From: Bacteroidota bacterium
GTDB taxonomy: Bacteria; Bacteroidota; Bacteroidia; Palsa-948
Length of the DNA: 39,815 nt
Reading direction: 5' to 3'
Assembly (NCBI GenBank): GCA_016213435.1
Contig: JACRAL010000005.1
Location: 1-39,815, forward strand
Part shown: positions 6,789-29,377 of the stretch, piece by piece
Position numbering within the stretch: position 1 is the stretch's first letter
Layout: each line of letters opens with the position of its first letter
Notes under the pieces: model-generated
What the model saw: the letters and a program-made list of their open reading frames with translations, nothing else
What the model was told of the DNA's origin: nothing
Database searches by the model: none
Made by a program: the position numbers and the translations under genes

Positions 6789-7952
6789 ATGAAATCTCTT
6801 GATATCATCCTGAAAGAATGTGAAATCTTGGCTTTTGATTTAACTTTTTCAAAGGCAAAAAAATGGAAAGCAGAAGACAAAAAAAGAATTCTTGTCGGTT
6901 ACCTTCCTATTTATGTTCCACGCGAAATCATTCATGCGGCAAATGGATTGCCTGTGGGAATAATGGGAGCGGGGGATAGAAAGCAAATTATTAAAGGAGA
7001 TGCGTATTACCAATCCTACATCTGCCATCTTCCTCGCGGAATAATAGAAATGGCACTCGATAAAAATTTAGATGACTTTGACGGATTTATGTTCCCTGCC
7101 ATTTGCGATTGCGTACGAAATCTTTCCGGAATGTTCAAGCTTTCAAAGAAAGGAAAATTTCAGCGCTACTTTGATTATCCTCAAAACTTTGATGCGCTCA
7201 TTGGCGGTACTTTTTACATCCAGGAAATGGAGAAGATATTGGAAGATATGCATGCGATCAATGGCGTGAAAGTTACAGCAGAAGCGATCAACAAAGCCAT
7301 AAAGCTTTACAATGTTAACCGTAAGTTGATTGAAGAGATATATAGCATCCGCCAACAATATCCATGGAGATTATCCGCAGTGGAAACCTATCACATTCTG
7401 CGTGCGGGAATTACTATTCCTGTTGAAGAACACAATGAAATGTTGAAGCAAGTGGTTGATCATATTCAGAAAGAACGTGGTGAGCCCATGGATAATATCC
7501 GCGTGGTAGTCACCGGTTCGTTCTGCGAACAACCTCCCATCGGCCTGATCAAATCCATTGAGATGGCAGGGTGTTATATTGTAGAGGATGATTTCATGCT
7601 GGGTTCAAGGCAGATACAGGGAGAGATAAAGGATAATAGCAAGAATCCGCTAGAGGCGCTTGCAGATGCTTACATCCATCAAAGCACATTTACTTCCTGT
7701 TTTTACGATGTTGAAAACCCAAGAGGAAAAAGGTTGGTTAAACTTGCGAAAGAAAGAAATGCAGATGGAATCATTTTCTCCGCAGCAAGTTTCTGCGATC
7801 CTGCGTTGCTGGATCGTCCGCAAATGCAGCAGGAATGCGATGCAGTCGGAATTCCGCACATTAATTTCCAGTATCACGAAAACACCGGGCAGTTCAAAGT
7901 CATTAAAGAACAGGCCGGAACTTTTTCCGATTCAATAAAATTGTGGGCGTAA
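6789..7952 (+). CDS. bcrC: benzoyl-CoA reductase subunit C (2-hydroxyacyl-CoA dehydratase family)
   Basis: GYLPIYVPREIIHAANGLPVGIMGAGDRKQIIKGDAYYQSYICHLPRG; size and first position in a CBAD gene order. Confidence 0.9.
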   Translation: MKSLDIILKECEILAFDLTFSKAKKWKAEDKKRILVGYLPIYVPREIIHAANGLPVGIMGAGDRKQIIKGDAYYQSYICHLPRGIIEMALDKNLDDFDGFMFPAICDCVRNLSGMFKLSKKGKFQRYFDYPQNFDALIGGTFYIQEMEKILEDMHAINGVKVTAEAINKAIKLYNVNRKLIEEIYSIRQQYPWRLSAVETYHILRAGITIPVEEHNEMLKQVVDHIQKERGEPMDNIRVVVTGSFCEQPPIGLIKSIEMAGCYIVEDDFMLGSRQIQGEIKDNSKNPLEALADAYIHQSTFTSCFYDVENPRGKRLVKLAKERNADGIIFSAASFCDPALLDRPQMQQECDAVGIPHINFQYHENTGQFKVIKEQAGTFSDSIKLWA

Positions 7953-11114: not shown

Positions 11115-11954
11115 ATGGATAAATCATTTAACACTATGGGAATTGATGTCGGTAGCAACTTCATCAAACTGGTTTTAATGGATTATTCTGACAAGCCAAA
11201 ACTATTAGATAAGCAAACGGAAAAGATCCGCAAAAGAAATCCTACTCAGGTTGCCGATGAAATGATTCAAACCATGCTTACCAAGCATAAGTTGAAATAC
11301 GAAGACATTGCCTACCTCGCTTCTACAGGTGAAGGAGACCTGGTAAAACGCAAACGCGGACATTTTTACGGCATGACTACGCACGCAAAAGGCGCTCACT
11401 TCTTTTTCCCCGATGCAAGAACTGTGGTGGATATGGGAGCACTGTATGTGCGCGCGGTAAAAATTTCAGGTGATGCTCGCGTGGAGGATTATAAAATGAC
11501 AGGACAGTGCGCATCGGGTTCCGGACAGTTTGTTGAAAATATTTCCCGTTACCTTGGATTATCCATTGAAGAAGTAGGCGAAGTTTCTTTATCGGCAAAA
11601 AATCCTGAAATATCATCCGGCATTTGTGCGGTGCTTGCCGAAACAGATGTCATCAATATGGTATCGCGCGGAATTTCTACGCCCGATATTATTAAAGGAA
11701 TTCATCTTTCCATTGCAAACAGAATTATCAAGCTTATGAGTTCGCTGAAAGGAGAATCGCCAATTATTCTCACAGGAGGAATGGCTTTGAACAAAGGAAT
11801 GCTTCAGGCGATCGAAGAGCAATTGAAAGAAACAGGAAAGAAATTTGAAATAAAAACTCATCCAGATGCTGGATATGCCGGAGCGATTGGTGCAGCATTG
11901 TGGGGAGGGTTTCGTCATATTAAGTTGAAAGAGAAAAAAGCAGTAGCAGCGTAA
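11115..11954 (+). CDS. bcrD: benzoyl-CoA reductase subunit D (BadG/BcrD ATPase)
   Basis: MGIDVGSNFIKLVLMD, DMGALYVRAVKI, GQCASGSGQFVE, ILTGGMALNKGM. Confidence 0.92.
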   Translation: MDKSFNTMGIDVGSNFIKLVLMDYSDKPKLLDKQTEKIRKRNPTQVADEMIQTMLTKHKLKYEDIAYLASTGEGDLVKRKRGHFYGMTTHAKGAHFFFPDARTVVDMGALYVRAVKISGDARVEDYKMTGQCASGSGQFVENISRYLGLSIEEVGEVSLSAKNPEISSGICAVLAETDVINMVSRGISTPDIIKGIHLSIANRIIKLMSSLKGESPIILTGGMALNKGMLQAIEEQLKETGKKFEIKTHPDAGYAGAIGAALWGGFRHIKLKEKKAVAA

Positions 11955-14408: not shown

Positions 14409-14981
14409 ATGCAACAATCAGTATTCGCTAAATATGTTCTTCCTTTTTTTCAATGGTATGCATTGATGATCGTACTGGCAATTATCATTGACTATTTTCT
14501 TCATCGTTATCATCTCATTGTTGTCGGTCGTTATCTTGGTTATCTGGGAACTTTCGTTGTGATCTTATCCTTTATTTATTCCTTACGCAAGCGGCAGTTA
14601 ATAAGATCGGGCTCGCCAAAAGAACTTTTGCTTCTGCATGAATACATGGCATGGGTTGGCTCTGTCATGATCCTTGTTCACGCAGGCATTCATTTCAACG
14701 CAATATTGCCATGGCTTGCCATCCTGATGCTGCTGATTGCCGTAGCAAGCGGACTGATCGGCAAATTTCTTTTAAAAAAATCTCATGATGCTTTGAAAGA
14801 GAAAAAGCAGGATTTGATGAATAAAGGAATCACCGAAGCAGAAGCAGAAAAAAATCTTTTTTTAGATTCCATTACAGTTGATCTGATGAGGAAATGGAGA
14901 GCCGTTCATCTTCCCATCACATTGCTGTTAGGCGTTTTGGTATTGATTCATATAATCACCATCGTAATGTTCAGCAAATGA
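14409..14981 (+). CDS. integral membrane protein, cytochrome b-like
   Basis: Several hydrophobic helices with His residues (HEYMAWVGSVMILVHAGIH; WRAVHLPITLLLGVLVLIHIITI). Confidence 0.65.
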   Translation: MQQSVFAKYVLPFFQWYALMIVLAIIIDYFLHRYHLIVVGRYLGYLGTFVVILSFIYSLRKRQLIRSGSPKELLLLHEYMAWVGSVMILVHAGIHFNAILPWLAILMLLIAVASGLIGKFLLKKSHDALKEKKQDLMNKGITEAEAEKNLFLDSITVDLMRKWRAVHLPITLLLGVLVLIHIITIVMFSK

Positions 14982-15865
14982 AAAGAATAGTTGTTTTAGT
15001 GATCGTTGCCTTATGCGCATGTATGGTATACCTGTTTCCTCAGGAGATGATCAATCCCGGAGATCTGGTAGCAGGACATCAGCACCTGAAAGACAAATGC
15101 CTCGCATGTCATCATCCCTTTTGGGGAATAGCTTCCGAAAAATGTATCAGCTGCCATAAACTCTCCGATATCGGTAAGGATACACTCATGTCAAATGATT
15201 CGACTTCAAACAAGAGCAAAACATCTTTTCATCTTAATTTTTCAAATCAGGAATGTACCGGCTGTCATACCGATCATAAAGGACTCAAGCCCGGTATTTC
15301 TTTAAGCAGATTTGATCATAAATTTTTATCGGGAGCGGAGAATGCGCAATGCATCAGCTGTCACAGCAAACCTACAGATGATGTTCATGCGCAATTATCT
15401 ACTGCCTGCAACAACTGCCATAACACGCAAGGATGGAGATCTTTTGTATCCTTTGATCATGCCATGATACAGGGCGCAGATAAAAACAATTGCATTACCT
15501 GTCATCAGCAGCCAAAAGCAACTTATCATAATCAATTCAATACCGATTGCGCAAAATGCCACATCACCAGCAAATGGCGGCCCTCTTCTTTTGATCATTC
15601 ATCGTATTTTATACTCGACCAAAACCATAATGCCAATTGCATTACCTGCCACTCCGATAATAACTTCAGCGCATACACCTGTTATGGCTGCCACGAACAT
15701 TCGCAGGGAAAAATGGAGAGCAAACATTACGAGGAAGGAATTACAAATATTATTAATTGTGTAAGATGCCATAAAAGCGGCAATGAACATGAAACCGAAG
15801 GCGGCTCGCGCTCAAATGAAGGAGGAGAGGGACACGGAAAACACGAAGATCATGATGATGATTAA
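14978..15865 (+). CDS. decaheme c-type cytochrome
   Basis: ATGA overlap with the preceding gene; ten CxxCH motifs (CLACH, CISCH, CTGCH, CISCH, CNNCH, CITCH, CAKCH, CITCH, CYGCH, CVRCH). Confidence 0.88.
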   Translation: MKRIVVLVIVALCACMVYLFPQEMINPGDLVAGHQHLKDKCLACHHPFWGIASEKCISCHKLSDIGKDTLMSNDSTSNKSKTSFHLNFSNQECTGCHTDHKGLKPGISLSRFDHKFLSGAENAQCISCHSKPTDDVHAQLSTACNNCHNTQGWRSFVSFDHAMIQGADKNNCITCHQQPKATYHNQFNTDCAKCHITSKWRPSSFDHSSYFILDQNHNANCITCHSDNNFSAYTCYGCHEHSQGKMESKHYEEGITNIINCVRCHKSGNEHETEGGSRSNEGGEGHGKHEDHDDD

Positions 15866-15868
15866 ACT

Positions 15869-16072
15869 ATGATTACAACAGCTGTCAAATACAAAAATCC
15901 CATATTCTTCATCGTAAAGGACATATTGTCCATCGTAAAGCCAATATCCTCTATCGTAAAGGACATATTGTCTATCGTAAAGCCAATATCCTTTGCTATA
16001 ACTCCAATATCCTCCGCTATAACTCCAATATCCTCTGCTATAACTCCTCAGTACGCGCTAAGCTCTGCTTAG
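15869..16072 (+). CDS. possible heptad-repeat peptide encoded by the 21-nt array
   Basis: ORF reads IVKDILS-IVKPISS-IVKDILS-IVKPISF-AITPISS-AITPISS-AITP. Confidence 0.25.
   Translation: MITTAVKYKNPIFFIVKDILSIVKPISSIVKDILSIVKPISFAITPISSAITPISSAITPQYALSSA
15911..16048 (+). repeat. 21-nt tandem repeat array
   Basis: atcgtaaaggacatattgtcc / atcgtaaagccaatatcctct alternating, then gctataactccaatatcctcY units; six full units plus a partial one. Confidence 0.85.
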
Positions 16073-16080
16073 TGCGCGCA
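16053..16080. repeat. inverted repeat GCGCTAAGC-tct-GCTTAGTGCGC
   Basis: acgcgctaagctctgcttagtgcgcgca immediately after the tandem array; could act as a terminator but has no clear T-tract. Confidence 0.4.
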
Positions 16081-16116
16081 TAAGTAAAGTTAGTAGCAAT
16101 GCTTAAAAAAAACACT

Positions 16117-16329
16117 ATGAAAACAATAGCCCTCTTATTTACAGTCGCAACAGTATTTCTTGCGGCAACTTCCTGCAACAAGAACAGACCCGATTGTTTT
16201 GACAAAAAACTTTACCGACAGCACAAAAATGACCTCTGCACAGACGATTGTCCTGGCGTGGTAGGTTGTGATGGAAAATTGTATTGCAACGAGTGTTACG
16301 CAACAAGACAAGGTATACATGTTAAATAG
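16117..16329 (+). CDS. small Kazal-type protease-inhibitor-like lipoprotein
   Basis: Lipobox-like ATSC; CTDDCPGVVGCDGKLYCNECYA Kazal-like cysteine pattern; ORF track start at 16099. Confidence 0.6.
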   Translation: MKTIALLFTVATVFLAATSCNKNRPDCFDKKLYRQHKNDLCTDDCPGVVGCDGKLYCNECYATRQGIHVK

Positions 16330-16342
16330 AAACACAACGATA

Positions 16343-16930
16343 ATGACTACAAGACAAACACAACTTTTGACGGTTGCAATTGTAACACTTTCGTTCTTCG
16401 TGACGACTTGCAGTAAAGATGTATGTGATAATTATACGGAGTTGACAGACCATAACCACTTAGTCGACCTCAGCCCTTTAAATGGAGCGCATGAACTTCT
16501 TGATACCTTGACAAAGTATCCGCAGTTACAAGTTTACAGAGTGCTCAACAACCAATACTGTTATGGAATGCAGTGTAATGTTTTTTATAAGGGATTTAAA
16601 GTTTTCACCGACTACTACGCTCTTTATAAGAGTAAATCTGACAACAATATCTACACTGCCGACCCTGCAATCGTTGACACAATAAATATTTCGCTGACCG
16701 CATCCATACAATTCGACAAAGCAATCAGTATTGCAAGACAAAATATGAATTATAGCAACACTTGTATTTCATACCGACTTGGAATTTACAACTTAAATGC
16801 GGGGACATCAAACCAGACAAAAAATTACAAATTGATTTGGAAAATTCAGGGTGAAAATGGTTATCCGGTTGTAGACCTTGACGCAAACAGCGGACAAGTT
16901 TATTATGCGTTCGATGGGAAAGAACAATAA
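16343..16930 (+). CDS. hypothetical lipoprotein
   Basis: N-terminal MTTRQTQLLTVAIVTLSFFVTTCSKD signal/lipobox-like; start chosen from the in-frame ATG downstream of the 16268 ORF start. Confidence 0.55.
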   Translation: MTTRQTQLLTVAIVTLSFFVTTCSKDVCDNYTELTDHNHLVDLSPLNGAHELLDTLTKYPQLQVYRVLNNQYCYGMQCNVFYKGFKVFTDYYALYKSKSDNNIYTADPAIVDTINISLTASIQFDKAISIARQNMNYSNTCISYRLGIYNLNAGTSNQTKNYKLIWKIQGENGYPVVDLDANSGQVYYAFDGKEQ

Positions 16931-16993: not shown

Positions 16994-18268
16994 ATGTATA
17001 AAATTCAATCAGCAAAATTGTTAAAGGAAGTAATGGGAAATTATTTCCTTGGGTTTAAGGATCCTGACGCTTCTGGTCAGGATGCTGACCGTAAGCGTCA
17101 GCACACAACCAAAAAGATCGCATGGTGCACCAGCGTAGGTCCCGCTGAATTGCTGCGTTCTTTTGGCTTTGATGTTCATTTTCCCGAAAACCATGGAGCA
17201 TTGCTCGGAGCCACCCGCACTGCCGGAGATTTTATTCCCGAAAGCACCAAGCTTGGCTACAACAACGATATTTGTTCCTACCTCACTGCCGACATAGGTT
17301 CCTATTTAAAAAAGCAAACTCCCTTGCAGGAGCATTATGGTTTGCAAGGACCTCCCAAACCCGATTTGATAGTGTATAACACCAATCAATGCCGTGAAGT
17401 GCAGGATTGGATGAATTATTTTGCCAAGGAAATGAATTGTCCAATTTTCGGAATCACTCCTCCGCGTCACATGGACGAAGTAAGCGAAGCGCATATTCTG
17501 GATGTGAGCGCACAGTTTAAAGCCATGATCCCCGCTTGTGAAAAAGCCAGCGGAAAGAAATTTGACATTGATCGTTTCCGCGAAGTGTTAAAGCTGAGCA
17601 AAGAAGCTACCGATCTCTGGAAAAAAGTATTGTGGACAGCAACTTCTTCTCCTTCTCCCATAAGTTTTTTCGATGCCACCATTCACATGGGTCCGATAGT
17701 GGTTTTGCGCGGCACACAAGTAGCAAAAGATTATTATGCCGCATTGTTAAAAGAATTAGAAGGCAATGTTTCTAAAAAGATCGGATTCCTTGCCGAAGAA
17801 AGCAGCCGCATCTATTGGGATGGAATGCCCGTCTGGGGAAAGCTACGACCGATGTCGGAATTATTTATCGAGAACAAAGCGGCAGTGGTGGCTTCCACGT
17901 ATTGCAACAGCTGGGTGTTCGATGCCTTTGATGAAAAAAATCCTTTCGAATCATCTGCAAAAGCATACACCGAGATTTTTATCAATAGAAGCGAAGACGC
18001 AAAAGAAAAAATATTATCAAGATTAGTAAAAGACTTCCGTATTGACGGAATGATTTTTCATGATGCAAAGACCTGCGCCAATAATTCCAATTCACGTTTT
18101 GGAATGCCGCAAAGGATTTCGGAAAAACTTGGCATTCCGACTTTGGTGATCGAAGCCGACTTGTGCGATCTGAGATTTTATTCTGAAGGACAAAGCACCA
18201 CAAAGATCGAAACGTTTCTTGAGCAGATAGAGAGTTCAAAAGGAATACGAAAAACAGCAATGGTATAA
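16994..18268 (+). CDS. 2-hydroxyacyl-CoA dehydratase / double-cubane-cluster-like family protein (second system)
   Basis: WCTSVGPAELLRSFGFDVHFPENHGALLGA, NDICSYLTADIGSYLK, NTNQCREVQDW, AKTCANNS; ATG at 16994 preferred over TTG 16952. Confidence 0.8.
   Translation: MYKIQSAKLLKEVMGNYFLGFKDPDASGQDADRKRQHTTKKIAWCTSVGPAELLRSFGFDVHFPENHGALLGATRTAGDFIPESTKLGYNNDICSYLTADIGSYLKKQTPLQEHYGLQGPPKPDLIVYNTNQCREVQDWMNYFAKEMNCPIFGITPPRHMDEVSEAHILDVSAQFKAMIPACEKASGKKFDIDRFREVLKLSKEATDLWKKVLWTATSSPSPISFFDATIHMGPIVVLRGTQVAKDYYAALLKELEGNVSKKIGFLAEESSRIYWDGMPVWGKLRPMSELFIENKAAVVASTYCNSWVFDAFDEKNPFESSAKAYTEIFINRSEDAKEKILSRLVKDFRIDGMIFHDAKTCANNSNSRFGMPQRISEKLGIPTLVIEADLCDLRFYSEGQSTTKIETFLEQIESSKGIRKTAMV
17063..17102 (+). 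repeat. in-frame 40-bp palindrome of a different family (PDASGQDADRKRQ)
   Basis: cctgacgcttctggtcagg-atgctgaccgtaagcgtcagc; arms ctgacgctt..ggtcag / ctgacc..aagcgtcag. Confidence 0.7.
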
Positions 18269-18373: not shown

Positions 18374-18817
18374 ATGAGCGAGAAAACATCTTTAGAAGGC
18401 CGCATATTCAAACTTTCCACCGGAGAAAAGATCGCCCCTGCTGATCTTGAAAAACTAATCGGGGAGGTATGTCATTACATTAAATATGTTGCTGTCAGCG
18501 AGGATGAAAAAGAAAATCCTGTCGCCTTGATCTTTCCGAATAAAAAATTACTGGATCAGCCCGATTATAAATTAACTCCGGAGGAAGGTTGTTTTTGTCC
18601 GCGCAGTCTCGATGAACTTGGCCGGTGTCTGACAGGTTGTTTGAAACTGGTGAATCGTCAGATAGCAGATGATTCCTTAAAATTAAAATCAGCAGCAATA
18701 ATTAATAATGAAAATTATTCTGCCGATATTGTGAATAAATATAAAGCATTGCTAAGGGAAAAACACGGGGACAAAGTTCCTGCCGATGAAGAGATTTATT
18801 TTATAAAGAATGTTTGA
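18374..18817 (+). CDS. small protein resembling the C-terminal subdomain of AMP-forming acyl-CoA synthetases
   Basis: 'GEVCHYIKYVAVSEDEKENPVALIFPNKKLL' resembles the synthetase C-terminal 'V.QVMVVGD.R.YVAALIVPN' segment; weak resemblance. Confidence 0.4.
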   Translation: MSEKTSLEGRIFKLSTGEKIAPADLEKLIGEVCHYIKYVAVSEDEKENPVALIFPNKKLLDQPDYKLTPEEGCFCPRSLDELGRCLTGCLKLVNRQIADDSLKLKSAAIINNENYSADIVNKYKALLREKHGDKVPADEEIYFIKNV

Positions 18818-20370
18818 GGGATAAGATGAACCAGATGCCCTACTTAAATGAGCTTCGCTCGCAAGCTCCGCTTGTCCAAAGGGGAGGACTTTCGCGCGTA
18901 ACTCTCCCCCTTTGGGGGAGTTGGAGGGGGCTACCCAAGAAGCCGATACTATATCTCTCATTAGCATGTATCGCTTTTCTTGTCATTACTTGCCGGAAGG
19001 ATGAACAAGGTTCTGATTACAAAGGTTATCCGCTTGAAGTAGGAAAAATAATTCTTACTAAATGTGCCATTGCCGGCTGCCATACGGATAAAAGCAAGGA
19101 AGCCAGCAATGGTTTGTCTTTGGAAAGCTGGAGCAGTTTATTTAACGGAAGCCGTTACGGAAACACGGCTGTAATTCCTTACCGTTCGGATATTAGTTTC
19201 CTTTCCTATTTTATAAATACTTATAGTGATCTGGGTATTTCCATTCCTCCCGCCATGCCTCCGGGGAAAGACCCTCTGACGAGAGAAGAAGTAATTACCG
19301 TTCGCGACTGGATTAACTTAGGCGCACCGGCACGCAACGGACTGATCCCTTTTTCCGACATGGCACACAGAAGAAGAATGTTTGTTGTGAATCAGGGCTG
19401 CGATAATGTTTTCATCATCGATGCCGCAACCGGTTTGATCATGCGTAGTGTTGATATAGGTGTCAGCCCTTCCATCGAATCTCCTCATTTTATTGAAATA
19501 TCGCCTGACGAAGAATATTTCTATACATGTTTTTTTGCCGGCAGTGTATTTCAAAAGTTTAACATCAATGACGGTACTTTGGCAGGGGAAGCAAACATTG
19601 GTTCGGGGCAATGGAGCGTTTTCGAAATCACTCCCGATGGGAAACGCGCTTTTGTGGTTGACTGGAGTGCAAATGGTTCCATTGCGGTGATGGATTTGGA
19701 AACCATGACTCTGCTGGTAAAATGGCAGGGCAACGGATTGCTGCAATATCCTCATGGTACAGGCATGAAAGGAAATAATCTTTATGTAACATCCCAGCCC
19801 GGAAATTTTTTCTATAAGATTGATTTTACGGATATCTATAATCCAAATATCTCGCAAATCCCATTGCAGGCAAATGCAAACTCACATGAAATTCATTTCT
19901 CGCAGGATGGAAGCGAATATGCTGTTAGTTGTGTTGGATTAAATGAGATATGGTTCTTCAATGCTTCGAACGATGCATTGATTGCCAAAGTTGCTACCGG
20001 AAAAGGTCCTGAAGAGCCGCACTATGCAGGAGATACTTTGTTTGTTACCTGTCCGAATGATGATGTTACATTTCCCGGAAAAATTGGTGCTGTATCCATC
20101 ATTAATGGAAAAACCCATACATTAATTAAAAATATATATACCGGATGGGAGCCGCACGGCATTGTGCCCGATGTACAGGGAAGAAAAGTTTGGATCCTGC
20201 ACCGCAATATTGCAGGCGGAGGACCGCCACCGCATCATTCTTCTTCTTGCTCCGGAAGAAACGGCTACATGACCGCGATTGATTTGAATACATTGGACTT
20301 GATACCAAATCTAAAACCTGAATTATCTGTTGATCCGTATTTTGGGGCAATTGTTGGACATCATCATTAA
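18814..20370 (+). CDS. CX4CH cytochrome-like plus YVTN-type beta-propeller lipoprotein
   Basis: KCAIAGCHTDKS; MPPGKDPLTREEVITVRDWINLGAP; propeller repeats 'MFVVNQGCDNVFIIDAATGLIMRSVDIG'; lipobox-like FLVITC. Confidence 0.65.
   Translation: MRDKMNQMPYLNELRSQAPLVQRGGLSRVTLPLWGSWRGLPKKPILYLSLACIAFLVITCRKDEQGSDYKGYPLEVGKIILTKCAIAGCHTDKSKEASNGLSLESWSSLFNGSRYGNTAVIPYRSDISFLSYFINTYSDLGISIPPAMPPGKDPLTREEVITVRDWINLGAPARNGLIPFSDMAHRRRMFVVNQGCDNVFIIDAATGLIMRSVDIGVSPSIESPHFIEISPDEEYFYTCFFAGSVFQKFNINDGTLAGEANIGSGQWSVFEITPDGKRAFVVDWSANGSIAVMDLETMTLLVKWQGNGLLQYPHGTGMKGNNLYVTSQPGNFFYKIDFTDIYNPNISQIPLQANANSHEIHFSQDGSEYAVSCVGLNEIWFFNASNDALIAKVATGKGPEEPHYAGDTLFVTCPNDDVTFPGKIGAVSIINGKTHTLIKNIYTGWEPHGIVPDVQGRKVWILHRNIAGGGPPPHHSSSCSGRNGYMTAIDLNTLDLIPNLKPELSVDPYFGAIVGHHH
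18841..18926. repeat. two-ended palindromic element forming the N-terminus of the 18814 CDS
   Basis: gagcttcgctcgcaagctccgcttgtccaaaggggagga...ctccccctttgggggagttggagggggct; right end matches the right end of the DUF559 element at 35308-35347. Confidence 0.75.
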
Positions 20371-20385
20371 AACTACACATCACGA

Positions 20386-20805
20386 ATGAAACTCTGCCAA
20401 ATGTCAACTGCTAACTGCCAACTGGTTTTTTTGCTTTTTGTTTTTTGCTTTTTATTTATTTCCTGCCACAAAGCAGGAACAGGCGGCAATGCCTCATTGA
20501 TGGTTTATCCACAGCATCACGATGTTCCAATCATCAATCATGTCGGATATCCTGACACAGTGTTTCTGAAATTTAATGTGGATGAACTTTCCGGCACAAG
20601 ACCTTCGGATTACGATGTGTTTTATGTGGGTACACCGAGAGAAGATTTTATTCATTGTGATGGGTTGAAAGCAGGAAAATATTTTGTGTATGCCGTGGGA
20701 TATGACAGTTTTTATATGCAACGGGTTTCAGGTGGAATACCTTTAAAAATAAAATATTCACAGCGAAAAGAAATGATCATGGTAACTGTTCCGGTTGTAG
20801 AATAA
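20386..20805 (+). CDS. hypothetical lipoprotein
   Basis: Signal/lipobox LFVFCFLFISCHK; located between cytochrome genes. Confidence 0.55.
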   Translation: MKLCQMSTANCQLVFLLFVFCFLFISCHKAGTGGNASLMVYPQHHDVPIINHVGYPDTVFLKFNVDELSGTRPSDYDVFYVGTPREDFIHCDGLKAGKYFVYAVGYDSFYMQRVSGGIPLKIKYSQRKEMIMVTVPVVE

Positions 20806-20810
20806 ACACT

Positions 20811-22739
20811 ATGAAAAAGGAGATAAATAGTATCAGGTATCAGGTATTAAGTATCGCATTCATTATTTTTTACTTTTTATTTTTTACTTGTGCATCCCAG
20901 CCATGGTTGGTTCCGCAAGGATGGTCTGTTAAAAGAAATCCAACCCCTTTAGGCAGTGTATCCGTTCAGGCGGGAAAAAATATTTATCGTGCCAACTGTA
21001 TTATCTGCCATGGTGAAGGAGGAAAAGGAAATGGAACATTGGCTCTGAGTTTAAATCCCCGTCCTGCAGATCATACAAGCAAAAAATTTCAGCAGCAGAA
21101 AGATGGAGAACTGTTTTATAAAATCATCACGGGCAGGAACGCAATGCCGTCTTTCAAACAAGTGCTTTCTGAAAATGAGATATGGAGCGTTATTAATTTT
21201 ATTCGCACACTGGAAGTGAAAGCAAAACCAGTTTCACCTAAATCTACTGCTACTGCTACTGCTACTGTCGCTGCCTCTGTTCAATCTAATCAGCAAAAGA
21301 ATATTTTTAAAGATACTTCATCGGAAAAGCAAGCTGCCTCAGTTGTAAAAAGGCTTGATACACTTTCAATTCATCAGGAAAATATCTCGCAAACAGTAAT
21401 TCTTCAAAAAAGAATAGCCGATACTTCATCTTTTGTTTCTGCTATTGCTTCCGATACTATTGCCATTGATAGTCTGACTCTAAATAATCCAAACGAAGAT
21501 TCGAAAGAAGAAAGACGAAAATTTCTTCTCAGCGGTTCTGCCAACTTGGATATTAATATTGACGGAAGAAAATTCAACTCTGCCGGTATTGCGGTTGGGT
21601 TCATGCCCGTTATTCTCTGGAAGCCATCCAAAAATTTATTCTTTGAATCTCATTTTCATATTATGGCCGGCTCAGGCACATCACAAAGCAACACATCTTC
21701 GTCCTCCGGAAGTATGTCGGGGATGTTGATGCGTATTGGAACTCCTCCTCCTACGGTCCAACATAGCGGGATGAATTCAACACCCGCAGTAACTTCATCC
21801 ACTTCTACTTCGTCAACAATATCCATGGCAAGTATTATGTTGGCGTATGCCGATTTGGTTTATTTCATTAATCCTTATGTAACGCTTACCGGTGGAATAT
21901 TTCTCTCTCCTTTCGGTTTGTATCCCGAGCGCCTGCACGCGCCCTGGTTAAACCGTTTGCCCGATGCTCCTGCAGGAATGGGTAATGAACAAGTTCTTCC
22001 TGAAACTGAATTGGGTGTTCAGTTCAGAGGAGGAATCCCCATTGGAAAAACAAAACTGGTTTATGCCACGTATATTTCTAACGGACCTTTTTTAGTTGAC
22101 GACACAAGCGGAAATGCCGGCAAACTTTCTTTCAATAATCTGGTTGACAATAACAAGAATAAAGCGCTTGGAGGGAGAATCGGTTTTTTCCCGTTGCCGA
22201 ATAACCGTTCTCTGGAAATAGGATTTTTTGGACAACGCGCTCGGGTTGGGCAGGATGCAACACCGCATGCGGGTGTGCAGGCTTTGCTTTATGGTTCCGA
22301 CATTTCCTTTCATCATTATTTCAGGTTCATTAAAGGAACAATCGATATGAAAGGACAGCACTGCAAAGTATCATTGGATAAAGTTTATTATAAAGCCAAT
22401 CCCATGGAGGTGATTAATGTTCCGGCAGAAGATGTAAATCTTAAAGATTCTACTTATCGGTTTAATAACGTAACGGAATTATATTTTATAATGATGTCAT
22501 ATCGACCCACTGCTTCTGAACATTTTTTGAAGAACGTAGAATATAATTTCAGGTATGATTATTTAAAAGAGCCTGCCTTCGCAAGGTGGAATATAAGTGC
22601 ATCGCGTTTAACGATGGGAATTACTTATTGGCTGGAAAGCCGCTCTGCAATGAAACTGGCGTATCAGATCAGTATGCCCCAAAATATATTTTCTAAAAAT
22701 CAGAATATGTTAATGCTCCAATGGGTAATAGGCTTATAA
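20811..22739 (+). CDS. cytochrome c domain fused to porin-like outer-membrane beta-barrel
   Basis: N-terminal CIICHGEGGKGNGTLA...MPSFKQVLSENEIWSVINFIRTL cytochrome c; C-terminal alternating barrel-like strands with GGIFLSPFGLYPERLHAPWLNRLPDAP porin-like motif. Confidence 0.7.
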   Translation: MKKEINSIRYQVLSIAFIIFYFLFFTCASQPWLVPQGWSVKRNPTPLGSVSVQAGKNIYRANCIICHGEGGKGNGTLALSLNPRPADHTSKKFQQQKDGELFYKIITGRNAMPSFKQVLSENEIWSVINFIRTLEVKAKPVSPKSTATATATVAASVQSNQQKNIFKDTSSEKQAASVVKRLDTLSIHQENISQTVILQKRIADTSSFVSAIASDTIAIDSLTLNNPNEDSKEERRKFLLSGSANLDINIDGRKFNSAGIAVGFMPVILWKPSKNLFFESHFHIMAGSGTSQSNTSSSSGSMSGMLMRIGTPPPTVQHSGMNSTPAVTSSTSTSSTISMASIMLAYADLVYFINPYVTLTGGIFLSPFGLYPERLHAPWLNRLPDAPAGMGNEQVLPETELGVQFRGGIPIGKTKLVYATYISNGPFLVDDTSGNAGKLSFNNLVDNNKNKALGGRIGFFPLPNNRSLEIGFFGQRARVGQDATPHAGVQALLYGSDISFHHYFRFIKGTIDMKGQHCKVSLDKVYYKANPMEVINVPAEDVNLKDSTYRFNNVTELYFIMMSYRPTASEHFLKNVEYNFRYDYLKEPAFARWNISASRLTMGITYWLESRSAMKLAYQISMPQNIFSKNQNMLMLQWVIGL

Positions 22740-22747
22740 TATATATT

Positions 22748-23074
22748 ATGAAACTAAGAGAGAAGTCAGTAATTGTTATGAAAAAATGCCTTAATTTCCC
22801 GATAGTTTTCGGGATTAAGTTTTTTGTGATCCTGATGGTGATTTTGGTTGCGGGTTGTACGCTGACTAAAGAAGCAAAAGATAGAAAAGAACACATAAGC
22901 AATTCGGGGCAGAAATTATGGGAGCAAAATTGTTCTCGCTGTCACAACAGTCCTTCTCCTGCTTCTTTCAGCGATGCGGAATGGGATGTGGTTGGATCAC
23001 ATATGCGTGTGCGCGCTTATCTCACAGGAAAAGAAGCAGATGCAATAATTAAATTTTTGAAATCAATCAATTAA
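22748..23074 (+). CDS. small monoheme c-type cytochrome lipoprotein
   Basis: VAGC lipobox; NCSRCHNSPSPASFSDAEW...GKEADAIIKFLKS; alternative start 22778. Confidence 0.65.
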   Translation: MKLREKSVIVMKKCLNFPIVFGIKFFVILMVILVAGCTLTKEAKDRKEHISNSGQKLWEQNCSRCHNSPSPASFSDAEWDVVGSHMRVRAYLTGKEADAIIKFLKSIN

Positions 23075-23121: not shown

Positions 23122-24963
23122 ATGAAAGATATAGTTTCAGGAAATAAAAAGAAAAAAGTTGCCGTCATCGGCATTGGTCCTGTAGGAATGATCCTCGCAG
23201 TTCATTTGCAGGAAGCCGGTTGTGAGGTTGCAGTTTGCGACCTTGATAAAATGAAGATTAACCTTGTAAAAAAAGATGGTGTGGAGCTGACAGGTGAGAT
23301 CAAAAAGAGAACGGTTTTCAAAAATGTTTTTAGTTCCATTGCAGATATCGAACAATTCAATCCTGATCTGCTGGTGGTTTGCTTGAAAACCACTCACCTT
23401 CCTTCTGCTATGAAAGAGATTGAAAAATTAAGCAACTCTTCCATGGGGGTTATCTGCGCAATGAATGGAATTGATGTGGAGAAGATGGTCTCAAAAGTGA
23501 TCGGAGAAAGCCGATCGTTCCGGATGGTAATAAATTATGCAGGAAATCTTACCGCTCCAAACATAACTAAAGTGACTTTTTTCACTCCTCCGAATTACTT
23601 GGCTTCCGTCAATGATTCAAGAATGGCAGAAGTGGAAGAAATTTGTTCTCTGCTGAAAAAAGTTTCGCTTGAAACAAAAGCCATTACCTCATTTGAATTG
23701 CTCAAAGCTACCTGGGAGAAAACAATTCTGAATTCCTCGCTGAGCGCTTTATGCGGAGTGGGAAGAATGACCATGTCAGAAGCAATGAGCAATTCCGATA
23801 CGGTTGAACTTGTGGAGCAGATTATTGAAGAAGCGGTGGAAGTTGCCGCAGCCGAAAAAATAAAGTTTGAAGATGATTTTGTTCGCAAATGTCTGCGATA
23901 TTTGGGTAAAGCAGGAAATCACTTTCCTTCACTGGCGGTGGATCTGTTGAACAATCGTCCTACAGAAATTGATTGGCTCAATGGTAAAATTGTGGAGTAC
24001 GGTCGCAAGCATTACATCCGCACTTCGCTCAATCTTACTTTCACAAACATGGTGAAAGCGATGTCGGATAAAAATTTTTCATCCTCTGTTCAAACTGCAA
24101 AGGTAGCTATCGCTCAGAATTTAATGGCTAAAGAAAAGCCTTCGAAGAACGGAAGTTCAAAATCGCATACTTATTATTTAGGAGTTGATCTGGGTTCAGC
24201 ATACACGAAGTTTTCCGTTATTGATGAAAATGAAAAAATAGTTTTTCAAACTGCGCTCAAAACTCTGAACCGTGATAAAATTTCTGTTCGTCACGTGATC
24301 GAAGCGGTGAAAAAGGAATATCCAATATCTCATACGTGTGCTACCGGCTACGGACGAAAACATTTTCCGGATGCAGATGTTGTTAAAACCGAATTGAATT
24401 GCGCTGCACTTGGAGTTTCAAAATATTTTCCGGGAGAAAAAAACATCATTGACATTGGCGGAGAAGATATTAAAGTAATCAAATGCAAAGCGGATAACAA
24501 CATTGAAAATTTTTACCTGAACGATAAATGCGCTTCAGGTACAGGTTCTTTTATTACAGAAGTAGCGGAACGAGCAGACATTCGAATTACCGATATGAGC
24601 GACCTCGCAGGAAAATCAACCTTCCGCAAGGAACTGAACAGTTTTTGCACGGTGTTCGCAAAAACTGAGATCATGAGCTGGATGTTTGAAGGACTTCCGA
24701 TCGAAGACATTGCAAAAGGAATTTATATTTCCATCGTCAATCGCATAACGAAACTGAGAATAGATCCCAATGCACCGATTTATATGATAGGAGGAGTGAT
24801 TGCGCACCATCCTGCTCTAAAAGGTTTATTGCAGGAACGTTACAAAAAAGACGTTGGCGTGGTAGAAAAATCCCAGTTTGTTGTTTCGCTTGGCGCTGCA
24901 TTATATGCTAAAGAGTACACCCCGACCCTAAAGGGAGAAAGACAAATAGAAACCCTGCCTTAA
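23122..24963 (+). CDS. fusion: ketopantoate reductase-like (ApbA/PanE) dehydrogenase + BadF/HgdC-type ATPase activator
   Basis: N-terminal KVAVIGIGPVGMILAVHLQEAGCEVAVCD...AMNGID; C-terminal YYLGVDLGSAYTKFSVID, DIGGEDIKVIK, NDKCASGTGSF, GGVIAHHP. Confidence 0.85.
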   Translation: MKDIVSGNKKKKVAVIGIGPVGMILAVHLQEAGCEVAVCDLDKMKINLVKKDGVELTGEIKKRTVFKNVFSSIADIEQFNPDLLVVCLKTTHLPSAMKEIEKLSNSSMGVICAMNGIDVEKMVSKVIGESRSFRMVINYAGNLTAPNITKVTFFTPPNYLASVNDSRMAEVEEICSLLKKVSLETKAITSFELLKATWEKTILNSSLSALCGVGRMTMSEAMSNSDTVELVEQIIEEAVEVAAAEKIKFEDDFVRKCLRYLGKAGNHFPSLAVDLLNNRPTEIDWLNGKIVEYGRKHYIRTSLNLTFTNMVKAMSDKNFSSSVQTAKVAIAQNLMAKEKPSKNGSSKSHTYYLGVDLGSAYTKFSVIDENEKIVFQTALKTLNRDKISVRHVIEAVKKEYPISHTCATGYGRKHFPDADVVKTELNCAALGVSKYFPGEKNIIDIGGEDIKVIKCKADNNIENFYLNDKCASGTGSFITEVAERADIRITDMSDLAGKSTFRKELNSFCTVFAKTEIMSWMFEGLPIEDIAKGIYISIVNRITKLRIDPNAPIYMIGGVIAHHPALKGLLQERYKKDVGVVEKSQFVVSLGAALYAKEYTPTLKGERQIETLP

Positions 24964-25054: not shown

Positions 25055-26317
25055 ATGAAAGGATTTCACAACAAAGAAAAAGGTATCGGTATTTTGTATG
25101 ATGATATCTATCTGGTAAACGGAATGCGTACGCCATTCGGAAAATTATGCGGCACCATCGGACAAGTTTCTCCTACTGATCTTGGAATTTATGCTGCTAA
25201 AGCTGCAATGGAAAAATCAGAAATAAAACCAACAGATATTGATCAGATTTTTGTCGCCAACATCGGGCAGAGCTCACCTGACACTTATTTTCTTCCGCGT
25301 CATATCGGTTTGTATGCCGGAATTCCGTTTGGTATTCCATCGGTAATGCTTCAGCGCATTTGTGGTTCAGGATTTGAAACGATCATTGCAGGTGCAGAAC
25401 AAATTTCATTGGGAAAAGCAGGCATTTCACTTTGCGGTGGTACGGAAAATATGTCGCTTTCGCCAACAGCAGCTTTCGGAAACAGAATGGGATATGCACT
25501 CGGAAAACCCGGATTTGTGGATATGCTTTGGGAAGCGCTGAACGATACGGCTGCAGTTCCGATGGGATGCACGGCAGAAAATGTTGCTAAGAAACATAAC
25601 ATCACAAAGAACGATGCGAATGAATTTGCGAAACTTTCGGTTGACCGTGCTATGGCTGCTATAGAAAGCGGATTTTATAAAGAGGAGATTCTCCCAATGA
25701 ACACCACCGTTTTTGAAGCGGAAGGTTTGAAGCCAAGAAAAGTTTTTCTTCCGAGAGGCGTAAAAGATTTTGCGAAGGATGAACACATTCGCGCTTCCAC
25801 AATGGAAGAGATGGCAAAACTTCCTCCCGTATTTATGAAAGACGGAGTGCAAAATGCTGCTAACTCCAGCGGAATAGTGGATGGTTCTGCCATGGTGGTG
25901 GTTGCGCATAAAAATTCTGTGAAAGAAAAAAATATGAAGCCGCTTACCAAAGTGGTCGCTTCGGCAACCAGCGCTCTGGATCCGAGTGTGATGGGACTGG
26001 GACCAGTTCCTGCAATAAAATTAATTCTTGAGATGACGGGATTAAAAGTTTCGGATATAGGATTGGTGGAGATCAATGAAGCTTTCGCAGCTCAGTTCAT
26101 AGGATGTGAAAGAGAATTGGGTCTTGACAGAAATAAATGCAATGTGAACGGTGGTGCGATTGCGATCGGTCATCCGCTCGCTGCAACAGGAGCACGTTTG
26201 TCGCTCACCATTTCAAGAGAAATGAATTTAAGAAAAGTGAAATACGGAATTGCTTCGGCTTGCATTGGCGGAGGACAAGGAACTGCAATCTTATTTGAAA
26301 ATGTGACCCATCCCTAA
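25055..26317 (+). CDS. acyl-CoA thiolase (acetyl-CoA acetyltransferase family)
   Basis: RTPFGKLCGTI, QRICGSGFETI active-site Cys, NEAFAAQ, NVNGGAIAIGHPLAATGAR, SACIGGGQGTA. Confidence 0.92.
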   Translation: MKGFHNKEKGIGILYDDIYLVNGMRTPFGKLCGTIGQVSPTDLGIYAAKAAMEKSEIKPTDIDQIFVANIGQSSPDTYFLPRHIGLYAGIPFGIPSVMLQRICGSGFETIIAGAEQISLGKAGISLCGGTENMSLSPTAAFGNRMGYALGKPGFVDMLWEALNDTAAVPMGCTAENVAKKHNITKNDANEFAKLSVDRAMAAIESGFYKEEILPMNTTVFEAEGLKPRKVFLPRGVKDFAKDEHIRASTMEEMAKLPPVFMKDGVQNAANSSGIVDGSAMVVVAHKNSVKEKNMKPLTKVVASATSALDPSVMGLGPVPAIKLILEMTGLKVSDIGLVEINEAFAAQFIGCERELGLDRNKCNVNGGAIAIGHPLAATGARLSLTISREMNLRKVKYGIASACIGGGQGTAILFENVTHP

Positions 26318-26368: not shown

Positions 26369-27484
26369 ATGGAAAAGACAAAAAATGAAACACACACAGT
26401 TTCCTCCCCTTCGGGGAGGAGTAAGGTGGGGATCCTATATCAATGGCAAATGACGGAACCTGATAAGGAGTTCAAGCTGACGGAAATTAATTTTCCTGAT
26501 CTGAAAGAAGGAGAAGTATTGGTGAAAGTTGCCGGCTGCGGAGTATGTCATACCGACATAAGTTTCTGGCACCACGGTGTGCAAACAAAACATGCGCTTC
26601 CGCTTACGCTGGGGCATGAGATCAGCGGAGTGGTGGTTGGCGGAGATGCAAAATGGCTGAATAAACCTGTGATCATTCCGGCTGTTCTTCCCTGCGGAGA
26701 ATGCGAGCTTTGCAAAAAAGGAAGAAGCAACATCTGCAGAAACCAACTCATGCCGGGTAATGATTTTCACGGAGGATTTGCTTCGCATATAAAAGTGTCT
26801 TCAAAATTTTTGTGTGCGGTGCCTGATGCTGTGTTGAAAAAATATCCGCTCGAGAATTTATCTGTGATTGCCGATGCGATTTCAACGCCTTATCAAGTAG
26901 TGAAAAAATCCGAACTGGAAGCAGGCGATCTGGCAATCATCATCGGAGTGGGCGGGGTAGGAGTGTACGGTGCGCTCATCGCGAAGATTTTCGGAGCAAA
27001 AGTGATCGCGCTCGATATCAACGATGAAAAATTAAACATTGCAAAAGCAAACGGAGTTGATGCGGTTCTGAATATAAAAGGACTGGATGCAAAAGCCATC
27101 AAAGACAAAGTGAAAGAACTTGCCAAAGAAATCAAAGCTCCGAAAACCGGCTGGAAAATTTTTGAGATCAGCGGCACAAAATCCGGACAGGATATGGCAT
27201 TCAATCTTGTCACATTCACCTCCACGCTTTCCATTGTTGGATTCACGATGGATAAAGTGGAAGTTCGTTTGAGCAACCTAATGGCATTTGATGCGAAACT
27301 CATAGGAACCTGGGGCTGCCGTGCAGAATTATATCCCGAAGTATTGGAACTTGTCGCTAACGGAAAACTGAAGATCGAGCAATTTGTGCAAACTTTCCCT
27401 ATGTCAAAAATAAATGAAGTGTTTAAAAATACATTGGAATACAAATACACAAAGCGTTCGGTGATGGTGCCGGATTTTAATTAA
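26369..27484 (+). CDS. had: 6-hydroxycyclohex-1-ene-1-carbonyl-CoA dehydrogenase
   Basis: Zn-ADH fold CGVCHTDISFWHHGVQTKHALPLTLGHEISGVV; CGECELCKKGRSNIC; context next to oah and dch. Confidence 0.88.
   Translation: MEKTKNETHTVSSPSGRSKVGILYQWQMTEPDKEFKLTEINFPDLKEGEVLVKVAGCGVCHTDISFWHHGVQTKHALPLTLGHEISGVVVGGDAKWLNKPVIIPAVLPCGECELCKKGRSNICRNQLMPGNDFHGGFASHIKVSSKFLCAVPDAVLKKYPLENLSVIADAISTPYQVVKKSELEAGDLAIIIGVGGVGVYGALIAKIFGAKVIALDINDEKLNIAKANGVDAVLNIKGLDAKAIKDKVKELAKEIKAPKTGWKIFEISGTKSGQDMAFNLVTFTSTLSIVGFTMDKVEVRLSNLMAFDAKLIGTWGCRAELYPEVLELVANGKLKIEQFVQTFPMSKINEVFKNTLEYKYTKRSVMVPDFN
26401..26433 (+). repeat. in-frame solo palindromic end in the had N-terminus (SSPSGRSKVG)
   Basis: CCTCCCCTTCGGGGAGG at 26403-26419 then agtaaggtgggga. 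Confidence 0.75.
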
Positions 27485-27502: not shown

Positions 27503-28600
27503 ATGGAAACAAAAAATCATAACATCGTAGAACACAGTTTCAAAGAGATTCTCTTTGAAAAACGTCCTTGTTTAAATCATGACGGCACGCCCGTAAAAGA
27601 TTTATACAATGCGTGGATTATTCTGAATAATCCCAAGCAATTTAATTCTTACACCACTGCTGCAGTAAAAGAGATTATTCTTGCTTTTGCCGAAGCATCG
27701 AACGACCGCAGCGTAGTTGCAGTTGTTTTCACCGCAGTGGGTGATAAAGCATTTTGCACCGGAGGAAATACAAAAGAGTATGCAGAATATTATGCGGGAA
27801 ATCCTCAGGAATATTCTCAGTATATGCGTTTATTTAATGATATGGTAAGCGCAATTTTAAAATGCGAAAAGCCTGTTGTCTGCCGTGTGAACGGAATGCG
27901 TATCGGTGGTGGACAGGAGATCGGCATGGCTTGCGATTTCACTATTGCACAAGACATGGCTCGTTTCGGTCAGGCAGGACCGAAGCACGGAAGCGCTGCG
28001 ATTGGCGGTGCAACGGATTTTCTACATCTCTATGTTGGAATTGAAAGAGCCATGATGTCGCTCACGCTTTGTGAACCTTGGACTGCGCATCAGGCATATA
28101 ATTTCGGAATGATAACCGATATTGTTCCTGCGTTGAAAGTGGATGGAAAGTTTGTAGCGAACCCTTTGGTTGTGATAGATAAACAAACGGATGAATTCGG
28201 AAAGCTTATTTTCGGCACTATGAAAACAGGAGAAGAACTTAAGAAAGGAAAAGAAGTGTTGGTAAAAGGTGTTGTTGATCTTTCATTATTGGATGAAGCG
28301 GTGAATAAACTGATTGCAAAACTGCTGCACACCTTCCCCAATTGCACTTCAAAAACTTTATCGGAAGTGCGCAAGAAAAAACTGGAGCATTGGGATAAGA
28401 ATAAAGAAAGCAGCCGCGAATGGCTTGCGCTCAACATGATGACCGAAGCGAAAGCAGGTTTCCGTGCGTTCAACGAAGGGCCGAAAGATAATCGCGAAGC
28501 GGATTTCATCAAGCTTCGCCAGCTGCTTGCTCAAGGTCACGAATGGAACGATGAGCTTCATAAAATAATTTCTCCTCAATTTCAAAAAGCTAAAGTCTGA
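27503..28600 (+). CDS. oah: 6-oxocyclohex-1-ene-1-carbonyl-CoA hydrolase (ring-opening)
   Basis: CLNHDGTPVKDLYNAWIILNNPKQFNSYTT, FCTGGNTKEYAEYYAGNPQEYSQYMRLFNDMVSAIL, QAGPKHGSAAIGGATDFL typical of the Oah/BamA family. Confidence 0.92.
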   Translation: METKNHNIVEHSFKEILFEKRPCLNHDGTPVKDLYNAWIILNNPKQFNSYTTAAVKEIILAFAEASNDRSVVAVVFTAVGDKAFCTGGNTKEYAEYYAGNPQEYSQYMRLFNDMVSAILKCEKPVVCRVNGMRIGGGQEIGMACDFTIAQDMARFGQAGPKHGSAAIGGATDFLHLYVGIERAMMSLTLCEPWTAHQAYNFGMITDIVPALKVDGKFVANPLVVIDKQTDEFGKLIFGTMKTGEELKKGKEVLVKGVVDLSLLDEAVNKLIAKLLHTFPNCTSKTLSEVRKKKLEHWDKNKESSREWLALNMMTEAKAGFRAFNEGPKDNREADFIKLRQLLAQGHEWNDELHKIISPQFQKAKV

Positions 28601-28603
28601 ACT

Positions 28604-29377
28604 ATGCAAAAAGTAAAAACTACTTACACCCACGATAATTCCGTTGCAAGAATAGTTCTTGACGATGGAAAAGGAAATGTGCTTGACCATGTAATGATGG
28701 AAGAGTTGCAGGAATTGTTTAATTCTTTCTCGAAGAATAACAATCTGAAACTTCTTGTGTTTGAAGGAGCAGGGAAACATTTTTCTTTCGGTGCGAGTGT
28801 GGAAGAGCACAAAAAGGATTCTGCCACTGCCATGCTTCGTGGATTTCACCAATTGTTCTATTCTCTGCGCGATCTTTCCATTCCAACGGTGGCAAAGATC
28901 AGCGGACAATGTCTCGGTGGAGGATTGGAACTTGCATTGATGTGCAATGTCCTATACGCGGATAAAACCGCCAAGCTAGGCCAGCCCGAAATTGTGCTGG
29001 GCGTATTTCCTCCGCCTGCTTCTATTTTGCTGCCTGAAAAAATTGGTTTTGCGCGTGCGGAAGAATTGCTCATCACCGGAAGAACTATTTCTGCCGATGA
29101 GGCAAAAGCGCTCGGACTGGTGAATGAATTATTTGCTGATAAAGAAACTATGGAAGCCGAAATTGCAAAGTGGATAGAACTGAACATTGTTCCTAAGAGT
29201 GCTTCCTCATTGCGCTTTGCAGTAAAAGCATCCCGTGCAAAATTAAATCATGTTATTTCTAATTTCTTACCGCAGTTGGAAGCTTTGTATGTAAAACACC
29301 TCATGGAAACACACGATGCGAATGAGGGAATAAATGCTTTTCTTGAAAAGAGGAAGCCTATTTGGAAAAACAATTAA
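28604..29377 (+). CDS. dch: cyclohexa-1,5-diene-1-carbonyl-CoA hydratase
   Basis: Crotonase fold; GKHFSFGASVEEH, GQCLGGGLELALMCNVLYAD, LGQPEIVLGVFPPPAS. Confidence 0.88.
   Translation: MQKVKTTYTHDNSVARIVLDDGKGNVLDHVMMEELQELFNSFSKNNNLKLLVFEGAGKHFSFGASVEEHKKDSATAMLRGFHQLFYSLRDLSIPTVAKISGQCLGGGLELALMCNVLYADKTAKLGQPEIVLGVFPPPASILLPEKIGFARAEELLITGRTISADEAKALGLVNELFADKETMEAEIAKWIELNIVPKSASSLRFAVKASRAKLNHVISNFLPQLEALYVKHLMETHDANEGINAFLEKRKPIWKNN

Follow-up and report, generated by a model that had tools for sequence, protein, structure and literature searches.

The open reading frame at 23122-24963 of the analysed window, a stretch of 39,815 nt that lies on one contig of a 3.7-Mb Bacteroidota genome, encodes a fusion of a ketopantoate reductase-type (KPR) half with an HgdC/BadF-type activator ATPase half, and the fusion is located within a full gene cluster for class I benzoyl-CoA degradation that comprises bcrCBAD, had, oah and dch. 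We regard this architecture and genomic context as near certain. The near-exclusive co-occurrence of the fusion with the class I ring-reduction gene set points to an undescribed extra branch of the pathway. We tentatively propose that the fusion is the bifunctional part of a lineage-specific auxiliary module, made up of a five-cysteine domain, a PF06050 protein (hereafter X) and the fusion itself, and that members of Bacteroidota, Ignavibacteriota and Calditrichota carry this module together with the class I benzoyl-CoA reductase pathway. The fusion was laid out as follows:

23122-24963 (+): KPR::activator fusion, 613 aa, no internal stop codon
23122-24075 (+): KPR/D-mandelate-dehydrogenase-like half, residues 1-318; N115, K200, N204 and E282 invariant
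24076-24171 (+): variable linker, residues 319-350; low confidence in the structural model
24172-24963 (+): activator ATPase half, residues 351-613; motifs GVDLGS, DIGGEDIK, NDKC470ASGTG and NSFC509TVFAKTE

The sequence-only reading had described this frame as a fusion of the two families, and Pfam, NCBIfam, full-length homologues and purifying selection all bore it out. Pfam placed ApbA at residues 13-151 (1.8e-19), ApbA_C at 194-314 (2.1e-28) and BcrAD_BadFG at 353-596 (2.8e-35), and the protein scored above the NCBIfam cut-offs both for apbA_panE (TIGR00745, 162 against 141 bits) and for the acyl-CoA dehydratase activase (TIGR00241, 170 against 125 bits). At least 80 GTDB loci among the matches listed carried the fusion, nearly all at about full length; they were mostly from Bacteroidota, with a few from Ignavibacteriota/Chlorobiota and one from Calditrichota. 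A search of 60 genomes as relatives found it in 14 others, 13 of them without an internal stop, and the homologues came from metagenome assemblies in nearly every case. None of the plasmid records searched had a match covering 80% of the query (P0001). Between conserved flanking motifs the linker measured 35-49 residues (81 sequences). The catalytic Lys and Glu of the KPR half (K200 and E282), with N115, N204 and S270, and the [4Fe-4S]-ligating cysteines of the activator half (C470 and C509), with GxDLGS and DIGGEDIK, were all retained and invariant or nearly so in the aligned fusions (n = 87; n = 32). Measured against the nearest homologues, dN/dS was 0.055-0.072 for both halves, indicating strong purifying selection.

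In two relatives (G042 and G219) the halves were two adjacent separate ORFs, which shows that they are able to work as separate proteins and could be taken to favour a missed stop codon or an assembly chimera in the others, but an identical junction in about 80 independent assemblies across three phyla rules such an artefact out for practical purposes, including the sequencing error that the earlier reading had named as its possible undoing. That reading had also supposed the architecture to be undescribed, and no description of a KPR-activator fusion, or of the module in the Bacteroidota group, was found in the open literature, to which the search was confined.

A distant fusion with 39% identity and both active sites kept was present in another genome (G162, L114:3780-5618, - strand), an 82% complete MAG in which it lay on a 6.8-kb contig and which had no PF06050 protein. 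Four other genomes of the same order did not contain a fusion of this type, and the distant copy yielded no functional clue.

The benzoyl-CoA context of the fusion had been overlooked in the earlier reading. The genes of the cluster in the window were the following:

6789-7952 (+): bcrC, benzoyl-CoA reductase subunit C (TIGR02263, 471.6 bits; cut-off 421.15)
8023-9324 (+): bcrB, benzoyl-CoA reductase subunit B (TIGR02260, 701.7 bits; cut-off 486.55)
9358-10779 (+): bcrA, ATPase subunit A (best family TIGR02259, 438.7 bits; below the cut-off of 578)
11115-11954 (+): bcrD, ATPase subunit D (best family TIGR02261, 311.6 bits; just below the cut-off of 312.85)
12165-14354 (+): acd, ADP-forming acyl-CoA synthetase
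16994-18268 (+): X, PF06050 protein with a HadB-type alpha fold, in a clade of its own and always linked to the fusion
18374-18817 (+): five-cysteine domain, 147 aa, with C33 and C73-x-C75-x9-C85-x3-C89; orphan AMP-ligase C-terminal domain
25055-26317 (+): thiolase (thl), usually directly 3' of the fusion
26369-27484 (+): had, 6-hydroxycyclohex-1-ene-1-carbonyl-CoA dehydrogenase (TIGR03201, 458 bits; cut-off 339)
27503-28600 (+): oah, 6-oxocyclohex-1-ene-1-carbonyl-CoA hydratase/hydrolase (TIGR03200, 603 bits; cut-off 464)
28604-29377 (+): dch, cyclohexa-1,5-dienecarbonyl-CoA hydratase (best family TIGR03189, 233.5 bits; below the cut-off of 292.5)

All four genes of a class I benzoyl-CoA reductase, bcrC, bcrB, bcrA and bcrD, were thus in the locus. 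Relatives showed two types of gene order, bcrC-bcrB-bcrA-bcrD-[AMP ligase]-X-fusion-thl-had-oah-dch and bcrCBAD-[acd]-X-[small five-cysteine protein]-fusion-thl-had-oah-dch, and about half of the clusters had acd in place of the AMP-forming ligase. The linkage between the fusion and X, to which the sequence-only reading had drawn attention, was conserved: the two genes overlapped in 14 loci, lay within 60 nt of each other in 24 and had the five-cysteine gene between them in 32. Multifunctional 3HCDH/ECH genes were found in many clusters, and a tyrosine-phenol-lyase/tryptophanase-family gene sat between the fusion and the thiolase in two (L074 and L100). XdhC-/MocA-like genes upstream, and genes for FAD and molybdopterin subunits in relatives, suggest a 4-hydroxybenzoyl-CoA reductase. 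In the window, X and the five-cysteine gene were flanked on both sides by interposed genes (14409-16930 and 18814-23074), several of which were common to two loci of the same genus (L020 and L023). The interposed genes included the following, given by position:

14894: multihaem cytochrome c
18814: cytochrome/beta-propeller-like gene
20811: cytochrome/porin-like gene
22721: small cytochrome-like protein

Across 247 genomes of the class, BcrB was found in 35, belonging to 21 genera; X was found in exactly the same 35, and so was the fusion, counted whole or as adjacent or split pieces. The only fusion outside these 35 was the distant copy in G162. In a sample of 148 Ignavibacteriota genomes, two had BcrB, and the fusion was confined to that pair. 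These counts are given without a p-value because the genomes are kin by descent and share an operon, and are not independent tests.

We then compared the inheritance of the genes by distance correlation over 31 loci, uncorrected for species kinship. Among bcrC, bcrB, bcrA and bcrD the correlations were 0.95-0.98. The two halves of the fusion correlated with each other at 0.91 and with X at 0.68-0.70, and the thiolase correlated with X or either half at 0.55-0.62. Against bcr, X and the halves gave only 0.24-0.45, with X at 0.40-0.45. In bootstraps over loci, the X-fusion correlation exceeded X-bcr in 97% and fusion-thiolase exceeded fusion-bcr in 98%. X, the fusion and the thiolase therefore travel together, while their bcr partners have been partly exchanged. 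The AMP ligase correlated at 0.80 with bcr against 0.58 with X, so that it may be the benzoate-CoA ligase and its assignment to X is weakened. The same measure did not discriminate in tying the five-cysteine domain to X.

X was most similar to HadB (192.9 bits; TM 0.92 to 3o3m_A), which is the alpha subunit of 2-hydroxyisocaproyl-CoA dehydratase. Among NCBIfam models it scored 217.6 bits for HadB and 154.8 bits for BcrB, the former well short of the cut-off of 750 bits for the HadB equivalog (NF052455). When X was aligned to 3o3m_A, C94, C133 and C361 fell on the positions of the HadB cluster cysteines and S47 and E65 on HadB S37 and E55, so that the three cysteines, the Ser and the Glu of a HadB-type alpha subunit were all present. 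The Glu and Ser kept in X correspond to active-site residues described for BzdO as Glu65 and Ser44 (PMC11971306). In a tree with HgdA, HadB, the Proteus dehydratase, proteobacterial homologues, MbdO and BcrB, X formed a separate clade (100/100) outside the HgdA/HadB clade; in this tree and that of the activators, PDB sequences were represented by their aligned stretches only. Each of the eight bcr-positive genomes of the class that were tested had exactly three PF06050 proteins, BcrB, BcrC and X, as had one Ignavibacteriota genome and also one Calditrichota genome when a cut-off BcrC is counted. X therefore has no beta subunit of its own. It is possible that X is partnered by BcrC, as BcrB and BcrC were the only other PF06050 proteins, but the distance correlations did not favour this.

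We also considered X as a double-cubane protein, since C45 and C304 aligned near C36 and C263 of BzdN. This was rejected: the sixth cysteine (C293-type) was absent and NF040772 gave 56 bits against a cut-off of 350. The Proteus dehydratase alpha subunit also had a Cys at the C45 position, and the alignment of C304 was off by one in places.

The counterpart of the five-cysteine protein in the other type of cluster was a homologous domain at the C-terminus of the AMP-forming ligase. C33 and C73-x-C75-x9-C85-x3-C89 were kept in all 44 ligase C-terminal domains and all 36 orphans (with one Ser at the third position), and the ligase lysine motif LTPSMK was present in 42 of the 44 ligases and in none of the orphans. 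At E <= 1e-6 the domain was detected in 34 genomes of the class, all bcr-positive, and the contig of the one bcr-positive genome lacking it ended just upstream of X. From these patterns it follows that the adenylating part was lost and the cysteine domain kept when the ADP-forming enzyme took over. The conserved cysteines make a metal or Fe-S site the obvious prediction. Classical ferredoxin motifs were almost absent from the clusters.

The structure of the fusion was predicted by AlphaFold with 32 homologues, giving a model of moderate quality (mean pLDDT 75) in which the linker and part of the KPR C-terminal domain were poor. Foldseek matched its N-terminal half to D-mandelate dehydrogenases first (3wfi/5x20) and to ketopantoate reductases next, and its C-terminal half to MbdQ, HadI and HgdC, in agreement with the two families originally assigned. 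By PDB sequence and NCBIfam, the activator half was nearest to the HgdC/HadI-type activators, and MbdQ and HadI were nearest by fold. As in such activators, with which it shares the TIGR00241 match and the two cysteines, the cysteines of two subunits would bind one [4Fe-4S] cluster in a homodimer. In the tree the activator half formed a separate clade (100/100) on a long branch, apart from BcrA, BcrD and the HgdC/HadI types; this and low scores for TIGR02259 (93 against 578 bits) and TIGR02261 (49 against 313 bits) ruled out a modified BcrA or BcrD.

The KPR half belonged to the ketopantoate reductase family by both Pfam domains, the TIGR00745 score and the catalytic Lys and Glu; no PanE equivalog model of NCBIfam reached its cut-off. 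In sequence and fold it was nearest to D-mandelate dehydrogenase, an NAD-dependent enzyme that reduces aromatic 2-oxoacids. An Asp that follows the second beta strand of the KPR half suggests a preference for NAD over NADP. In the sampled class this KPR subfamily was restricted to bcr-positive genomes and G162, and its one stand-alone member was a paralogue in the genome of the window itself. This paralogue, 48% identical to the N-terminal half, lay in a second, partial aromatic cluster (G000 contig C14, locus L033, 5682-10614) beside a sodium/solute symporter gene and second copies of had and oah; that cluster contained neither an activator nor X.

By homology, the activator halves would likely form a dimer with one [4Fe-4S] cluster between them and use ATP hydrolysis to feed low-potential electrons, one at a time, into X, which the activator half likely energises and whose three-cysteine [4Fe-4S] site would bind a CoA thioester, while the KPR half would likely reduce a 2-oxoacid with NADH to the (R)-2-hydroxyacid. 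At the level of substrates, we lean, with reserve, towards an aromatic 2-oxoacid. Phenylpyruvate and 4-hydroxyphenylpyruvate would be the simplest candidates because benzoyl-CoA is the sink and a thiolase belongs to the module, and phenyllactate would perhaps be the product of the KPR half, as an intermediate towards benzoyl-CoA. A CoA ligase encoded in the cluster might then form the 2-hydroxyacyl-CoA, X might remove water by a ketyl-radical route to give a cinnamoyl-CoA, and enoyl-CoA hydratase/3-hydroxyacyl-CoA dehydrogenase with the adjoining thiolase might yield benzoyl-CoA or 4-hydroxybenzoyl-CoA for reduction by BcrABCD. The five-cysteine domain may serve as an electron relay or as a docking piece replacing the missing beta subunit. 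A route from phenylpyruvate through phenyllactyl-CoA and cinnamoyl-CoA to benzoyl-CoA has been proposed for another anaerobe, a benzene degrader (PMC13416013).

The aromatic 2-oxoacid route is consistent with the likeness of the KPR half to D-mandelate dehydrogenase and its invariant K/N/S/E positions, the HgdC/HadI-like activator half, the HadB-like X with its cysteines, Ser and Glu, the proximity of X and the fusion and their co-inheritance with each other and the thiolase over bcr, the tryptophanase/tyrosine-phenol-lyase-family gene in L074 and L100, and the 3HCDH/ECH genes in many clusters. On the other hand, the characterised 2-hydroxyacyl-CoA dehydratases known to us are all alpha-beta heterodimers, and X has no dedicated beta partner; X and the activator half both branch apart from the known clades; all 37 bcr-positive genomes carry the module, which is unexpected for a merely peripheral funnel; the AMP ligase tracks bcr more than X; and no FldA-type CoA-transferase was seen in the clusters. 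The beta-less X, its position outside the HgdA/HadB clade and the KPR paralogue adjoining had2 and oah2 rather than a dehydratase argue against a simple dehydratase.

Alternatively, the module may be intrinsic to ring reduction instead of a funnel, which we consider rather unlikely though a serious contender. X and the activator half could then form a second ATP-driven reductase that acts on ring substrates, for example by reductive removal of the hydroxyl group of a hydroxybenzoyl-CoA or the amino group of an aminobenzoyl-CoA. They could instead deliver electrons to BcrABCD or rescue it. The five-cysteine domain would conceivably be a dedicated iron-sulfur carrier. The perfect co-occurrence with bcr (35/35 in the class and 2/2 in Ignavibacteriota), the restriction of the five-cysteine domain to bcr-positive genomes (34/35), the near absence of classical ferredoxin genes, and the 4-hydroxybenzoyl-CoA-reductase-like and, in some loci, hydantoinase/TrpB-like genes nearby all speak for such a role. 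However, X and the fusion are co-inherited with each other and the thiolase over bcr, the intact 2-oxoacid-reductase active site is left unexplained and, to our knowledge, the same ring pathway operates in Thauera and Rhodopseudomonas with no module of this kind.

A role of the KPR half in the lower pathway, such as oxidation of 3-hydroxypimelyl-CoA or of a ring alcohol, with the fusion to the activator only fixing co-expression or co-localisation, would fit the gene order KPR::activator-thl-had-oah-dch and the paralogue by the second had and oah copies and the sodium symporter; it is improbable given that the invariant Lys/Asn/Ser/Glu set is of the kind that binds a 2-oxoacid carboxylate and that 3HCDH/ECH proteins for this step are encoded in many clusters. 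Still less probable is that the KPR half is a redox sensor in which NAD(H) binding gates costly ATP hydrolysis by the activator: the nucleotide-binding domain is covalently joined to the ATPase by a linker of nearly constant length, but the catalytic and not only the nucleotide-binding residues are fully conserved, and the halves are separate genes in G042 and G219.

Compared with known systems, the module shares with the 2-hydroxyacyl-CoA dehydratases (HgdABC, HadBC-HadI and FldBC-FldI) an ATP-driven HgdC-type [4Fe-4S] activator, an alpha-type subunit with three cluster cysteines, Ser and Glu, and a 2-hydroxyacid dehydrogenase as pathway neighbour; it differs in the fusion of the activator to a KPR-type reductase, the lack of a beta subunit, the separate clades of X and the activator, the benzoyl-CoA cluster and the extra five-cysteine domain. 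The class I benzoyl-CoA reductases (BcrCBAD, BzdNOPQ and MbdONPQ) are of the same superfamily and the locus has an ordinary bcrCBAD with had, oah and dch, yet the fusion is distinct from BcrA and BcrD, as X is from BcrB, and both are extra to the full set. The double-cubane cluster protein with its reductase (DCCP/DCCP-R) likewise pairs a single PF06050 protein with one activator, whereas X is only weakly similar to DCCP (28 bits), lacks the six-cysteine set and is strongly HadB-like. Members of the D-mandelate dehydrogenase/ketopantoate reductase family have the fold, catalytic residues and NAD-type Asp of the KPR half, which differs in being fused to an ATPase and in forming its own subfamily. 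The AMP-binding ligase C-terminal domain (PF23562), homologous to the five-cysteine domain, is still part of a ligase in half of the clusters; here it has five invariant cysteines, and its orphan form lacks the ligase lysine. The parts are of known kinds; new to us are the architecture, the strict link to bcr, the beta-less X and the cysteine domain.

It is conceivable, if doubtful, that, next to the 2-hydroxyacyl-CoA dehydratases and the benzoyl-CoA reductases, ATP-driven radical enzymes include a third type, made up of X, the five-cysteine domain and the fusion, that serves benzoyl-CoA metabolism in the Bacteroidota group. Such an enzyme would have a single alpha-type catalytic subunit, a metal-binding domain derived from a CoA ligase in place of the beta subunit, and a substrate-making reductase covalently joined to the electron pump.

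Few electrons in biology have potentials as low as those delivered by class I benzoyl-CoA reductases and their dehydratase cousins, enzymes known best from Proteobacteria and Clostridia. In the Bacteroidota-group version, widespread and apparently uncultured, the set is always supplemented by a further catalytic subunit, a further activator that is fused to a reductase, and a five-cysteine domain, which outlived its ligase of origin. Should the module turn aromatic 2-oxoacids into cinnamoyl-CoA or benzoyl-CoA, this would account for the mineralisation of aromatic amino acids by these bacteria; if it belongs to ring reduction itself, the textbook pathway would be short of one step in this group.

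Several further features of the loci were observed. In seven clusters (L045, L047, L056, L062, L065, L095 and L113), the fusion was followed on its 3' side by a 3HCDH/ECH protein and then hydantoinase A/B-like genes, and some of these clusters had genes for a PLP enzyme of the PALP family, or thiolase-like or acyl-CoA dehydrogenase genes; these downstream genes are reminiscent of anaerobic indoleacetate degradation. In G103 (C64:271617-274061, - strand), bcrC and bcrB apparently formed one open frame of 884 aa, possibly a BcrC-BcrB fusion. G+C-rich short palindromic repeats (e.g. CCTCCCCTTCGGGGAGG) lay in or between genes of the window at 4201, 10845, 13659, 13944, 26405, 34903, 35335, 38372 and 38908, and were read in frame within acd, had, a recJ-like gene and others; a similar stretch separated the split KPR and activator genes in G219. 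The recJ-like ORF (33419-35671, - strand) contained an insert that by eye resembled a DUF559/very-short-patch-type endonuclease and was bracketed by the repeats at 34903 and 35335.
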